A stretch of 12,858 bases of DNA from an uncultured Caldimicrobium sp. (GTDB lineage: Bacteria; Desulfobacterota; Thermodesulfobacteria; Thermodesulfobacteriales; Thermodesulfobacteriaceae): contig CALLJI010000004.1 of NCBI GenBank assembly GCA_938091475.1, forward strand, positions 1 to 12,858, written 5' to 3'. Positions within the stretch are counted from its first letter, which is position 1. Each line of letters begins with the position of its first letter. A program made the position numbers and the translations under genes. The notes below the pieces were generated by a model that was not told the DNA's origin, did not search any database, and saw only the letters and a program-made list of their open reading frames with translations. Shown here in pieces: positions 2,381-12,555 of this stretch.

Positions 2381-2401
2381 GCCTATTTGTTAGGGCATTT
2401 A

Positions 2402-2564
2402 GGCAGCCGCAAGGGCTGCCCCTACGCAATTTTGAATTTCCGGGCAATTCTTGAATTGCCCCTACAATTTTTCTCTCAGGCTAAAGCCTGCGGCTACCCT
2501 TTTTTATTATGTAGGGGCACGACAACGCCGTGCCCTAATCGGGCAGCCCTGAGGCCTCCTCTAC
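2402..2564. repeat. Cluster of five short palindromic (hairpin) units
   Basis: Units lie at 2402-2425, 2442-2465, 2475-2497, 2511-2535 and 2541-2564. Most share a frame of GGGC at one end and GCCCCTAC at the other, with a variable stem: CAGCCGCAAGGGCTG, CAATTCTTGAATTG, CAGGCTAAAGCCTG, and a GGCACGACAACGCCGTGCC type in reverse orientation (GTAGGGG at its left). The fifth is a damaged copy of the first. Spacers are 5-16 nt. The same stem classes make up the larger array at 9295-9820. Open frames across this stretch are by-products of the repeats. Confidence 0.85.
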
Positions 2565-8363: not shown

Positions 8364-9122
8364 CTATGTCTCTTTGGCATCCTCTTTATGAATAAGGGCT
8401 TTTAAAAGCTCTATAGGCAAGGGAAATAAAATAGTAGAATTTTTCTCGGTAGCTATTTCTGTTAAGGTTTGGAGGTATCTTAACTGTAAGGTAATGGGAT
8501 TTTGAGACATAACCTCAGCAGCCGAAAGTAAAGTTTTAGAAGCTTGATATTCACCATCTGCGCTTATGATTTTGGCACGCCTTTCTCTTTCTGCTTCTGC
8601 TTGCTTGGCCATAGCTCTTTTCATTTCTTCAGGTAGATCTATCTCCTTTATTTCCACCTTTGAAACTTTAACTCCCCAAGGTTCTGTATCAGCATCCAAA
8701 ATTTCCTGTAGTTTTAAATTTAATTTTTCTCTCTCAGCCAAAATTTCATCAAGCTCTGCCTGACCACACACACTTCTTAGAGTGGTTTGAGAAAGTTGGC
8801 TTGTTGCATAATAATAATCTTCCACTTGTAAAAAAGCCTTGTCAGGATCTACTACCCTGAAATAAACTACGGCACTAACTCTAATAGAGACATTATCTCT
8901 TGTTATGACCTCTTGAGGAGGAACATCCAGTGTTACTGTTCTCAAATCAATCTTTCTCATTCTGTCAATAACTGGAATAAGAAGGATAAGTCCAGGCCCC
9001 TTTACTTTATGAAATTTTCCTAATCTTAGGACCACGGCCCTTTCGTATTCATTGATGATCTTTATAGAAGCCTGCAAAAATATAAGTACAAGTACAATTA
9101 TAAAAATCAAAGAAAAGGCCAT
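8364..9122 (-). CDS. Slipin (stomatin/prohibitin-type SPFH protein)
   Basis: A 252-residue SPFH/Band 7 protein. Residues 3-19 are a single hydrophobic membrane anchor. The SPFH domain follows from about residue 23 ([22 protein letters not shown]...[14 protein letters not shown]...[23 protein letters not shown]). A coiled-coil region rich in Glu, Arg and Ala follows ([20 protein letters not shown]), then the C-terminal [11 protein letters not shown]...[11 protein letters not shown] typical of slipins. Such proteins oligomerise on the inner membrane and organise lipid domains or membrane proteases. They are often paired with an NfeD gene; none is present here. ATG 9122 has AAGGGGG at 7-nt spacing. 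It is the first gene of the minus-strand string. Confidence 0.93.
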
Positions 9123-9159: not shown

Positions 9160-9187
9160 AGTTTATTCAATAAAGATTAAAAGTCAA
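9160..9187 (-). promoter_or_regulatory. Candidate promoter for the slipin-ilv-tkt-tat gene string
   Basis: On the minus strand TTGACT (9187-9182) and TAAACT (9165-9160) are 16 nt apart, about 38 nt upstream of the slipin ATG. The -10 match is only 4 of 6 in a very AT-rich region. It lies just outside the left inverted repeat of the neighbouring element. Confidence 0.3.
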
Positions 9188-9203
9188 GGAAAAAAAGAGA
9201 ATG

Positions 9204-9258
9204 TTGTGATTACTATTTTGAAATGTCACAGTTAATTACCATTTTAAAATGTCACACG
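9204..9258 (+). repeat. Left terminal inverted repeat
   Basis: It contains two tandem copies (starting at 9210 and 9236, period 26) of TTAC(T/C)ATTTT(G/A)AAATGTCACA. Against the reverse complement of 9838-9892 it is identical over the 30-nt core 9210-9239, and 47 of 49 positions match from 9210 to the end of the second copy. Confidence 0.9.
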
Positions 9259-9378
9259 AGGGGTACGATATGTTCCATAAAAATGGTTTTCTTTGTAGGG
9301 GCACGGCACCGCCGTGCCCAAAAGGTTTTATTTGTAGGGGCAGGGCTTGCCCCAGCCCAAAAATTTCAAATCGGTTTT

Positions 9379-9440
9379 GGGCAGCCGCAAGGGCTGCTCC
9401 TACTTTTTAATTTCTTGGGCTCAGCAAGACGTGCCCCTAC
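9379..9440 (+). repeat. Two-unit 62-bp block, copy 1
   Basis: The block holds a CAGCCGCAAGGGCTG-type unit, a 13-nt spacer and a CTCAGCAAGACGTG-type unit. It matches 9649-9710 at 60 of 62 positions, spacer included. Confidence 0.9.
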
Positions 9441-9648
9441 AGATCTATAAATCTTTTGTTCAAATCGTGATTTATCTCATAAATCGAGGCAATTCTTGAA
9501 TTGCCCCTACCCTTTTTGATATTTCGGGCACAGCAATGCTGTGCCCCTACGCTTTTTTTTCATTCCAAAATTGAAAATGTAGGGGCAGGGCTTGCCCCTG
9601 CCCGAAAAGGGTTTAATTGTAGGGGCACGGCACTGCCGTGCCCAATAA

Positions 9649-9710
9649 GGGCAGCCGCAAGGGCTGCCCCTACTTTTTAATTTTTTGGGCTCAGCAAGAC
9701 GTGCCCCTAC
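9649..9710 (+). repeat. Two-unit 62-bp block, copy 2
   Basis: Second copy of the block at 9379-9440, offset 270 bp, with one difference in the first unit and one in the spacer. It indicates segmental duplication within the array. Confidence 0.9.
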
Positions 9711-9837
9711 AAGTAATTCTCGCAGGCTAAAGCCTGCGGCTACCATTTTTATTTCTTGGGCACAGCATGCTGTGCCCCTACCTTTTTGTAATTCTTTGGG
9801 CAAATCGTGATTGCCCCTACATCTTTAAATTATTTAC

Positions 9838-9892
9838 AATGTGACATTTCAAAATAGTAATTAACTGTGACATTTCAAAATAGTAACCACAA
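9838..9892 (-). repeat. Right terminal inverted repeat
   Basis: Inverted counterpart of 9204-9258. It carries two tandem copies of GTGACATTTCAAAATAGTAA with a 26-bp period, and here the two copies are nearly identical to each other. Confidence 0.9.
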
Positions 9893-9907
9893 AGAAAAAG
9901 GTATGCC

Positions 9908-9936
9908 TTCACAAAAAATAGGAATCCTGTTATGAT
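9908..9936 (+). promoter_or_regulatory. Strong sigma70-type promoter for DUF4390 and the histidine kinase
   Basis: TTCACA (9908-9913) and TATGAT (9931-9936) each match the consensus at 5 of 6 positions with the ideal 17-nt spacer. Transcription would be expected to start near 9943-9944, directly before the ATG at 9945. Confidence 0.6.
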
Positions 9937-9944
9937 TAAAGTGT

Positions 9945-10487
9945 ATGAATCATCTTATTAAAGCTCTTCTCCTTCTACTCATCTGTTTTTGTTATACCCC
10001 TTACCTCTATGCTTTAAAAATTGAGCCCATAAAAAGCTTTATTAATGAAAAAGGCGATCTACAGCTAATTTTTAATATAAAGGATTTTCCAGTGCAAGAG
10101 CTAATTTTATCTCTAAAAAGACAAAAAGAACCCATCCAGATACTTTATGAAGTGGAGCTCTATAAAAAAGGCTTCTTTAGGGATGAACTCCTGAATAAAA
10201 CCGTATACTATCAAAGAGCTGGCTATGAGCCTGAAAGAAATCTCTATTTCTTAGAAGATAATTATAGTTTAGTCTACTTTGAAAAGCCAGAAGAATTACT
10301 GCAAAAGATGATGAATTTGCCTGCTCTCCCTATACCTAACATTATTTCCTATGAAAATAAAAAGGATTTACACTGTCTAATTCGTCTTTCTCTTAAATAT
10401 AAAGCTCATTTAGATAAGAGATTAAGATATACAGATAAAGAAAGGGAGGTTCACCTCAAAATCACAAAGAAATATGTCCCCTTTTAA
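9945..10487 (+). CDS. Exported DUF4390-family protein
   Basis: A 180-residue protein with a signal peptide (residues 1-23, MNHLIKALLLLLICFCYTP then YLYA; likely cut after LYA). The mature part is predicted beta-rich: DLQLIFNIKDFPVQELILSLKRQ, then PIQILYEVELYKKGFFRDELL, then NLYFLEDNYSLVYF, ending in LRLSLKYKAHLDKR. This order matches DUF4390, a periplasmic family of unknown function whose genes commonly sit just before an NtrY-type kinase, as here. It may be a ligand-binding or accessory partner of the kinase; that is inference. The next gene overlaps its end by 14 nt. No ribosome binding site is visible and the start lies at the predicted transcription start. No later Met gives a signal peptide. 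Confidence 0.8.
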   Translation: MNHLIKALLLLLICFCYTPYLYALKIEPIKSFINEKGDLQLIFNIKDFPVQELILSLKRQKEPIQILYEVELYKKGFFRDELLNKTVYYQRAGYEPERNLYFLEDNYSLVYFEKPEELLQKMMNLPALPIPNIISYENKKDLHCLIRLSLKYKAHLDKRLRYTDKEREVHLKITKKYVPF

Positions 10488-12555
10488 CTGTCTAAGAAAA
10501 GTATTTGCAAGTAAAAAGGTATATTTTTTCTTAATCTTTTTACTTTGCTTACTCCTTTTGCAATATTTTCTTTATAAAAGTAATTTAATGGAAGTTCCTC
10601 AAAGAAGTCTCTTTCTTTTTTTCCTTGTCCAGGTGGATTTGATTCTTTTGCTTTTGCTTCTTTATTTAATTTTTAGATATTTATGGAATATCATTTGGGA
10701 GATAAGAGGGAAGCGAATATCCCAGAGTCTTAAATATAAACTTTTTCTTCTTTACTTTTTTTCTATCTTTTTCAGTGCAATTGTCTTGGGATTAGGTGTC
10801 TTTTTCTTTTATAAAAAGGGGTTGGAGTATTGGTTAGAGGAATATTCTTCAGAAAAGATTATTTCCGCTCTATTGACAGAAAAGGATATTATTAAAGATA
10901 TAGAAGGGGAGCTCCTGGAAAAGGCTATAAAAATCAAAAATGAGTATATCTCTAAAACTAAAGCTATTACTAGTAAAGATTTGCGGGAAAAATATAGATA
11001 TTTTCTGAATTTAGATACGATAGAAGTTTTTACTTATGAGGGGAGTCTATTTAAAAAAACCTATGCCTCTGAGATAAAGGAAAAGCCTGGTATTCCACCA
11101 TCTCTTCTTGAGAATCTTCTCAAAGAAAAGAAGCCTCAAAGTCAAATCCAACCATACAAGACTAAGCTCTTAGTAAGAGTTTTTTTACCTGTAGAAGACC
11201 TTAGGGGAACTCCCTATATTTTAGCCCTTGGTAAATTGATTGATCCAACCCAAATAAAGGGGCTCCCTAAGGATGAAAGGTTATTTTTAAGAACAGTAAA
11301 TCTCTTTTTTATCCTTTCTTTCTTAATGTTAATACTTCTTGTAATTTTTTTTGGTATCTGGGCTGGCAATAAGCTTGGAAAAAGTTTATCTGAGCCCTTA
11401 CAAAAACTCATTCTTGCTACACAGAAGATTTCCCAAAGAGATTTTGATCTCACAAAGCTTTTAGAGACTCCTACCAAAGATGATGAAATTTCTAAACTCA
11501 TACAAGCCTTTAAGCATATGGCAGAGGAAATTAAAAATTATGAAAATACTCTCAGAAAGTATAACCAATATTTGGTGGGGGTTTTAAATTCCTTGCCTGT
11601 AGGCATTATAATTTTTAAGAGTAATTTAGAAATACTTTTTGTGAATGAATATTTGAAAAATTTTCTAAGAAATTTAGCGATGACAGAGCCTAATTTATTC
11701 ATAGAAAAGCTCTCCCTTGAGAGCTTTTTTCAGACCCTTTCCCTTAATGAAAGACATTACCAAATTTTTACTTTCAAAGAGGAAGGGAGAGATATTTCCT
11801 TAGGTGTTACTTTTATGAAGCTTGAGCTTTTTGGAGATGTTCTTCTCCTTCTCATTATTGAAAATTTAGAGGAAAAAGAGGCTCTGAAGAGACTCTCTTT
11901 GTGGCGAGAAGTTGCAGTGAAAATAGCCCATGAGATTAAGAATCCCCTTACTCCTATAAAACTCTCTATGGAGAGGCTTAAAAAGAGATTGATAAAGGAT
12001 CTCAGCCCTGAAAATCGTGAACTTCTTGAACAATCAGCTAAAGTGATCGGAAAATATGTAGATGAACTCAAAAAATTAGCCCTTGATTTCTATTATTTTT
12101 CCCAAAGACCTTATTTTGAAAAAATTGAGTTTGATTTAAGAGAAAATCTAAATGAAGCTTTAGAGTTATACAAATTAGCTTATCCGGAAATTAATTTTCA
12201 AGTAGATTTTCCCAAAGATAGAGAAATTAAAATACAGGGGGATCCCTTTCAATTAAAAAGGGTCTGGATAAATCTTTTGGAGAACTCTATCAAAGCTATG
12301 GATGGCAAAGGAAAAATAAAAGTTCTTCTTTTGAAAGAAGAAGATAAAATTGTCCTTATTTATGAGGATGATGGAGTTGGGATGGAAGATGAGCTCATAG
12401 ATGCCTTTAATGTAGGAGATTTTTCAACCCTTCAAAAGGTAGGTACAGGATTGCTTATAATTAAAGGAATAATTGAACTTCACAAAGGAAAGATTTGGGC
12501 AGAGCGAGCCCTACCCAAAGGCACAAAATTTATTTTGGAACTACCTAAGTTTTAA
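10474..12555 (+). CDS. NtrY-type membrane sensor histidine kinase
   Basis: A 693-residue two-component sensor with the NtrY plan. Membrane segments lie at about 14-34, 45-71, 87-113 and 270-298; the third and fourth enclose a 160-residue extracytoplasmic sensor region. A HAMP linker (about 299-350), a PAS domain (about 365-465) and the kinase core follow. The phospho-acceptor is H486 in the NtrY signature WREVAVKIAHEIKNPLTPIKL. The ATPase domain shows the N box (NLLENSIKAM, N604), the G1 box (DDGVGM, 632-637) and a G2 box GTGLL (657-661) in place of the usual GTGLGL. NtrY kinases phosphorylate the sigma54 activator NtrX. No NtrX gene follows; a convergent gene does, so the partner lies elsewhere. 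The start overlaps the DUF4390 gene by 14 nt and its ribosome binding site is weak, so coupling is likely. Confidence 0.92.
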   Translation: MSPFNCLRKVFASKKVYFFLIFLLCLLLLQYFLYKSNLMEVPQRSLFLFFLVQVDLILLLLLLYLIFRYLWNIIWEIRGKRISQSLKYKLFLLYFFSIFFSAIVLGLGVFFFYKKGLEYWLEEYSSEKIISALLTEKDIIKDIEGELLEKAIKIKNEYISKTKAITSKDLREKYRYFLNLDTIEVFTYEGSLFKKTYASEIKEKPGIPPSLLENLLKEKKPQSQIQPYKTKLLVRVFLPVEDLRGTPYILALGKLIDPTQIKGLPKDERLFLRTVNLFFILSFLMLILLVIFFGIWAGNKLGKSLSEPLQKLILATQKISQRDFDLTKLLETPTKDDEISKLIQAFKHMAEEIKNYENTLRKYNQYLVGVLNSLPVGIIIFKSNLEILFVNEYLKNFLRNLAMTEPNLFIEKLSLESFFQTLSLNERHYQIFTFKEEGRDISLGVTFMKLELFGDVLLLLIIENLEEKEALKRLSLWREVAVKIAHEIKNPLTPIKLSMERLKKRLIKDLSPENRELLEQSAKVIGKYVDELKKLALDFYYFSQRPYFEKIEFDLRENLNEALELYKLAYPEINFQVDFPKDREIKIQGDPFQLKRVWINLLENSIKAMDGKGKIKVLLLKEEDKIVLIYEDDGVGMEDELIDAFNVGDFSTLQKVGTGLLIIKGIIELHKGKIWAERALPKGTKFILELPKF

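Follow-up and report, generated by a model that had tools for sequence, protein, structure and literature searches.

The window, by which we mean the whole 12,858-nt stretch analysed here, is contig C4 of an uncultured Caldimicrobium sp. whose assembly comprises 1.26 Mb in 233 contigs and is 72% complete. An array of 14 hairpin units (9295-9820) lies in the intergenic space between a slipin/SPFH gene on the reverse strand, the two closest named relatives of which are MAGs labelled Thermodesulfatator and Thermodesulfobacterium, and an operon on the forward strand formed by the 9945 gene and a histidine kinase gene (Table 1). Twelve of the units were recovered by the class scan, and a degenerate h unit and a class c unit complete the array. 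A second array of three units in the same window was searched for the end repeats I and J described below, and none was found there. The slipin loci of the same genus carried neither a hairpin nor an I/end repeat in any of six cases, and in G001 and G006 the slipin and 9945 homologues are neighbors without an insert.

Table 1. Features of the window, with hairpin classes and the labels of an earlier reading where these differ.
Feature	Positions	Strand	Remark
Second small array, three units (a g D)	2401-2535		frame search and class scan
Slipin/SPFH gene	8364-9122	-	one side of the array
Promoter-like site of slipin/SPFH gene	9160-9187	-	TTGACT-16-TAAACT
17-nt gap, left element end to slipin -35	9188-9204		possible copy of target duplication; 10/14 match to right copy, not significant
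Whole miniature element, 687 bp	9205-9891		TGTGATTA...TAACCACA; ISNCY/IS1202-type ends; inverted terminal repeats, conservation over 54 ends
Left end, two I-repeat copies (TGTGACATTTCAAAATAGTAA)	9205-9256	-	26-nt spacing, outward
Hairpin D (set I)	9295-9319	+	
Hairpin E (set I)	9334-9358	+	
Hairpin a (set II)	9379-9403	-	earlier label A
Hairpin x (set II)	9417-9440	-	earlier label F; poorly pairing core
Degenerate h	9458-9481	-	earlier label Hs; core kept, frame lost; 8 mismatches
Hairpin g (set II)	9487-9510	-	earlier label B
Hairpin b (set II)	9526-9550	-	earlier label G
Hairpin E (set I)	9579-9603	+	
Hairpin D (set I)	9619-9643	+	
Hairpin a (set II)	9649-9673	-	
Hairpin x (set II)	9687-9710	-	
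Hairpin c	9721-9743	-	earlier label C; GTAGCCGCAGGCTTTAGCCTGCG; GTAG-tagged, without GGGC frame; also in b-h spacers of other arrays
Hairpin b (set II)	9758-9781	-	
Hairpin h (set II)	9798-9820	-	one base short
Right end, two I-repeat copies	9840-9891	+	26-nt spacing, outward
16-nt gap, right element end to -35 of 9945 operon	9892-9907		possible copy of target duplication
Promoter-like site of 9945 gene and histidine kinase	9908-9936	+	TTCACA-17-TATGAT, TG before -10
9945 gene and histidine kinase	9945-12555	+	other side of the array

Read from its tag, the framed unit is composed of GTAG, GGGC, a core of 12-13 nt, and GCCC, and the core is self-complementary in the framed classes with the exception of x, whose cores (9417 and 9687) pair at three of the five inner positions inside GGGC/GCCC, one of these being G-T. 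A sequence-only reading of the locus had described hairpin classes within a shared GGGC frame, and this holds genome-wide and, in the window, for most units; it does not extend to the c unit, which has the GTAG tag but another body, or to the damaged h unit, and the accompanying statement that the stems keep pairing fails for x. The same reading counted 13 units, although its own list has 14 entries, and it gave the class order of the two halves correctly: D E A F (damaged H) B G, then E D A F C G H, where A, F, B, G, H, and C are our a, x, g, b, h, and c. The folding z-score of the array is -12.8 for RNA and -12.7 for DNA, and none of 100 shuffles was as low in either case; Rfam gave no match at the gathering score in the window.

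The exact frame occurs in 925 copies in this genome, about one hairpin per 1.4 kb, against 1 for a reversed-pattern control. When the window and the first 57 further stretches (154 kb) were collected and clustered by stem, as the earlier reading had proposed, the twelve commonest cores made up 235 of 389 exact units and the remainder formed a tail of rarer variants; with six mismatches allowed, 649 units were found, and the reversed sequence gave none. About 12 framed core classes are recognized, which we divide into set I (D, M, E, R, T, and r) and set II (a, f, b, x, h, and g). Discrete dominant classes, with a polarity and an order beyond every shuffle in the discovery set, were thus found rather than the continuous, unordered spread of stems that the earlier reading had named as speaking against it.

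The units of the window are GTAG-tagged REP hairpins, since a palindrome of 20-40 nt carries GTAG at one foot and the copy number is high. They resemble the GTAG superfamily of REPs (Di Nocera, 2013, PMC3733652), as far as the available text of that paper describes it, in the GTAG at one foot, the short stem, the tiny loop, the RAYT association, and the presence of intragenic copies, as well as in the opposite orientation of neighbors, heterodimers being favored in most families there. The arrangement is different: the same text describes singles, dimers, and tandem-repeated clusters of singles or dimers, while in the window genome about 12 classes make up arrays that are ordered and polar, reach 20 units, and in many cases lie inside IS ends. 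The arrays also have the properties of BIMEs, namely several REP types, alternating orientation, and mosaic clusters. From the parts of the reports available (Nunvar, 2010, PMC2817692; PMC8266576), the BIMEs of E. coli and Stenotrophomonas share the mosaic of REP types, the alternating orientation, the position adjacent to rayt, and the complementary stem changes, but those of E. coli are built from three types (y, z1, and z2), far fewer than the classes here, where an order and a two-set polarity are also seen.

The frame is unevenly distributed. Six same-genus genomes had 0, 3, 0, 1, 19, and 1 matches, and among 395 sampled genomes of the phylum the highest count was that of the window genome (921 copies), followed by G187 with 629 copies in 4.2 Mb. 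No long array was seen among about 100 places listed in G187, which look to be singles and two-class pairs. In G187 the GTAG/GGGC frame encloses other cores, and its units often form two-class pairs that are oppositely oriented and spaced by about 46 bp. The 19 matches of the complete same-genus genome G005 have mostly another core such as GGGCAAACACATAGGTTTGCCCCTAC, and that genome gave no RAYT profile match. Viral contigs contained no copies of two class sequences, and no similar DNA was found in plasmids.

Polarity was counted in 86 arrays, 73 of them for discovery (639 units) and 13 later (96 units); the latter came from a hairpin list that had been seen before the sets were formed and are therefore no blind test, and all shuffle tests treat arrays as independent although copied segments are common to them and units are not independent. 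Set I and set II were opposite in orientation for 594 of the 639 discovery units (shuffle maximum 431) and for 83 of the 96 later units (shuffle maximum 75). The discovery misfits belonged mostly to one mixed class, and splitting it, with the misfits in view, raised the fit to 613/639 and 86/96, leaving 26 and 10 misfits. The fixed reverse orientation of D and E relative to the other classes, which the sequence-only reading had seen in the window, therefore generalizes to the genome as the polarity of two sets.

A preferred class order, also suggested by that reading, is evident in the discovery set, where four measures exceeded every permutation: read in the direction of set II, the last unit of the set II block is of class a in 69 of 72 cases (permutation mean 25.7, maximum 40) and the first is b or x in 47 of 53 (19.1, 30), while in the set I block the first is D, M, or E in 83 of 92 (61.5, 75) and the last is T in 24 of 34 (10.4, 20). 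In the 13 later arrays, however, the same measures gave 8/8, 4/4, 10/11, and 2/5, all within the permutation range. Neighbors of the same class are rare (6 of 649 pairs, against 19.2, 46.3, and 88.1 under three nulls with minima of 8, 28, and 60), and pairs of the same class within one array have the same orientation in 196 cases and opposed orientation in 17. A class-level palindrome, in which the arms b-h-f-a would be mirrored by E-M-R-T, was tried and set aside, as the nested pairing ties for the best of 24 assignments and is suggestive only.

A comparison of our 70 own sequences (the window plus 69 stretches), with each other and with themselves, gave 328 matches that reach at least 75 bp and at least 88% identity, and most of the 45 longest span two to eight units with their spacers, the outside neighbors being different; one of the 45 contains only an I end. 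The array of L100 contains a tandem copy of eight units at 94.7% identity. Since such copied segments recur between arrays, at least part of the order has been inherited and was not put together one class at a time. It would be a stronger claim that the order is descent only, ancestral modules having been copied and trimmed with no rule of class or orientation; spacers between the same class pair are indeed slightly more alike (0.62) than other spacers (0.57). Nevertheless, these values are near the shuffled background (0.49) while hairpins within a class are 83-93% alike, D-E and E-D as well as h-f and f-h orders all exist, and same-class neighbors are depleted even within blocks, so that we consider descent alone a serious candidate that falls somewhat short of probable. 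The far better preservation of the hairpins than of the spacers would fit selection, gene conversion, or re-copying alike. As a separate observation, L129 (1382-1544) and L146 (1102-1263), on two contigs, share 163 bp that are 98.8% identical and that include an I end and a promoter-like site beyond it.

That structure is selected over sequence, as the earlier reading supposed, has partial support from three classes, in which compensated stem changes exceed the number expected under independence (a, 21 vs 4.7; E, 28 vs 17; R, 6 vs 2.4). The other classes have 0-2 compensated changes each, and non-pairing changes are common everywhere.

A look-up of RAYT (IS200/IS605-like) transposase genes, which the sequence-only reading had advised, yielded one RAYT-type gene (L110, 119-832; 237 aa). 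Two hairpins precede it at the contig start and an array follows it, so that a RAYT-type gene flanked by the same REPs is present in the genome, as in GTAG REP systems. Its ORF is interrupted (L110, 440-570; G000:C217) by hairpins a, g, and E, in frame, between two stretches that match the RAYT profile. The protein matched NF047646 at E 7.6e-17 with 61.5 bits, below the curated cut-off of 80, and Y1_Tnp with 27.7, above the cut-off of 23; neither this protein nor a transposase piece had a match in the PDB. RAYT-like genes are present in 9 of 30 family genomes including this one, and the eight others are without hairpin expansion; eight RAYT-like loci fetched from relatives had none of these hairpin classes. 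The earlier reading, which allowed that REP/RAYT palindromes could explain single classes, missed the element that carries the array.

This carrier is outlined by a 53-nt inverted repeat that encloses the window array, each arm consisting of two outward I-repeat copies. Conservation stops sharply after CCACA across 54 ends, and this sets the bounds of the window element. In relatives, ISNCY-type transposase genes called by NF033594 (L165 in G014 and L182 in G015) begin at the I-repeat pair or about 100 bp away from it; no ISNCY-type transposase was found in the 72%-complete assembly of the window genome. The transposase piece beside the I repeat in L182 has a Q seven residues after an E, by eye, and matches rve at E 5e-6. 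Two other readings of the repeat were discarded: IS21-type ends, our first reading, because NF033546 (IstA) had no match in the genome and the ends belong to ISNCY-type genes, and a promoter operator, because the conserved stretch has a sharp boundary behind CCACA and transposase genes are found next to the repeat.

The ends agree with those of the IS1202 long-TSD group, as described in the available portion of the family paper (Harmer, 2023, PMC10132070), in 5'-TGT and ACA-3' termini, repeats of 24-26 bp with a second internal copy, and target duplications of 16-17 bp; the group is further marked by a DDE transposase with Q seven residues after E, a spacing that may be present, by eye, in the L182 piece. 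The difference from that portion is that the elements here are miniature and without a transposase, have a hairpin array as cargo, and often stand beside a -35 box. A second end type, J (...CTTAGGAATAACA), is found mostly at the end opposite I: over the 86 arrays, which include 19 loci chosen for holding I, I stands at the set I end in 45 and at the set II end in 5, and J in 1 and 9, respectively.

Direct repeats located exactly at the ends were found for three array elements, L093 (469 bp, 17/17), L142 (421 bp, 13/16), and L107 (867 bp with 15 hairpins, 14/16), and for two hairpin-free miniature elements of relatives with the same ends, L168 (1494-1827, G011; 16/16) and L171 (1926-2143, G010; 13/14). 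All but the last fall in the 16-28 bp range of the long-TSD group. The five score 9.4-17, against maxima of 8.0 for cross-pair controls and 7.6 in a narrower search. In the first search, 2 of 12 own end pairs (L093 and L142) were above the control and 8 of 12 below a score of 5, and in the narrower one 3 of 37 pairs (L107, L168, and L171) were above it; the candidate of the window, with 5.2, ranks close to the 95th percentile of the cross pairs in the first search and is not significant.

Ordinary BIME-like clusters spread by RAYT only, with IS ends as neighbors merely because both are intergenic, would account for the GTAG tag, the opposite orientations, and the RAYT-type gene with hairpins on both sides. 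Such spread would also suit the arrays not chosen for their ends, of which 34 of 65 have neither I nor J and 31 have one of them at either end; the arrays without I or J may be truncated or may have spread another way. Against RAYT-only spread, a hairpin is found no more than 130 bp away from 57 of the 60 outermost I copies, in all 57 cases on the inner side of I (one of the remaining three stands at the end of a contig), the polarity is strong, and the 16-17 bp duplications of three array elements stand exactly at I and J ends. We consider it unlikely for these reasons. In our judgment it is, by contrast, probable that a miniature element with ISNCY/IS1202-type ends and no transposase of its own carries the GTAG-tagged REP hairpins of the array as an ordered set, and that whole arrays, such as L093, L107, and L142 with their duplications, are cargo of such elements. 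A point against this explanation is that its one RAYT-type gene is interrupted by hairpins, the RAYT mobilization step being one that we infer. Classes, orientation, order, and the RAYT-type gene were stated or proposed for checking by the sequence-only reading; the IS1202-type element, the flanking promoters, and the copied segments were not.

The element ends often face a promoter. Of 50 own ends, 17 have a TTGA[CA] that starts 15-18 nt outside the element, compared with 11 of 750 background 4-nt windows, and so do 10 of 13 ends in relatives, compared with 1 of 195; the latter ends come from eleven loci of seven other family genomes that were fetched for an I match or a transposase, not for promoters. 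A -10 hexamer (at least 5/6) follows 9 of 27 such -35 sites, a modest excess over the 15% in shuffles. The duplication length equals the distance from end to box. In L171 the duplication ends one base short of TTGACT, and no TTGA[CA] touches the duplication in L093 or L142. For the window element the distance is 17 nt on the left, to the slipin -35 (9187), and 16 nt on the right, to the TTCACA (9908) of the other operon; since the element lies between two divergent -35 boxes, it separates two promoters with neither broken. We also note that L165 of G014 has, from 7745 onward, a direct repeat of about 21 nt between the element end and TTGACA, suggesting two insertions or a duplication.

Survivorship would offer another account of this spacing, as it is established reasoning that insertions inside promoters would be lost and those near genes would live only if the promoter is spared, and 33 of 50 own ends are without such a box. 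The distance, however, is confined to 15-18 nt with no broad tail, 5-of-6 matches to TTGACA recur at two or more own ends only at 15-17 nt, and in L168 and L107 the duplicated target directly touches a -35-like TTGAAA. We hold survivorship to be very unlikely as the explanation.

A regulatory origin, with the arrays as a selected device of hairpin insulators or terminators between promoters, draws part of its support from T-runs. A T-run follows CTAC in 52% of 274 set II hairpins, against 2.6% at the other foot, but in 11% of 358 set I hairpins, so that the arrays may terminate transcription mainly in one direction, as judged from the T-runs. A bidirectional terminator array was rejected, as frequent T-runs are found in set II only. 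The window region contains 4 terminator-like sites, against 1.3 in shuffles, and among 100 array ends next to a scorable gene, the set I side looks onto gene starts at a ratio of 33:14 and the set II side at 21:32 (p 0.003), both of which would favor a regulatory device. This gene-side bias also follows from insertion at promoter edges, however, 23 of 86 arrays have T-run hairpins on both strands, and expansion in one species of the genus suits a mobile element better; a regulatory device is accordingly improbable.

Returning to the composite element, we propose the following course. A RAYT would have multiplied, or may still multiply, the hairpins as single-stranded structures, and an IS1202-type DDE transposase acting in trans would then move whole arrays, with cuts that often leave the duplicated target abutting the -35 box, perhaps because the transposase meets RNA polymerase or a promoter complex. 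Arrays would subsequently exchange and lose multi-hairpin segments by recombination with polarity kept, and same-class neighbors and inverted pairs would be purged as unstable, so that many distinct stems in fixed orientation remain. In our reading this is a selfish, recently expanded composite element, which is made tolerable by landing at promoter edges and may insulate promoters.

A bolder form of this proposal, which we put forward tentatively and with more doubt than belief, is that the IS1202-type transposase recognizes promoters, through the -35 box or the bound RNA polymerase holoenzyme, so that the duplicated target abuts the -35 hexamer, and that its miniature derivatives carry a self-stabilizing ordered REP set of a dozen types that now insulates many promoters of one species. 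The link of insertion to RNA polymerase is likewise one that we infer. A comparable geometry is known for the ISAjo2 group, where, according to the available portion of the family paper (PMC10132070), the duplication fills the gap between the element and a protein-binding site in one orientation, although the duplication there has 5 bp and abuts a XerC site, whereas here it has 16-17 bp and the site is a -35 box. For the long-TSD IS1202 group, for which the same portion of the paper gives no target, we propose the promoter edge at the -35 box as one. Neither such an array nor -35 targeting was reported among the literature matches listed, which were mainly non-subscription papers in partial text.

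The locus joins two mobile systems that are usually described apart, REP hairpins and an IS1202-type element. The old puzzle of the predominance of heterodimers among REP pairs becomes testable here, since the 86 arrays allow counts of classes, order, and orientation, and the hairpin density in one species amounts to a natural experiment on the hairpin load that is tolerated around the promoters of a small genome. As to an extragenic location, the window array lies between genes and three hairpins elsewhere lie inside the RAYT-type gene; the ORF caller used genome-wide set aside ORFs lying mostly within arrays. A 98-aa ORF in the window (9507-9803, reverse strand) is the hairpin array read through and nothing else, and carries a risk of wrong gene annotation.
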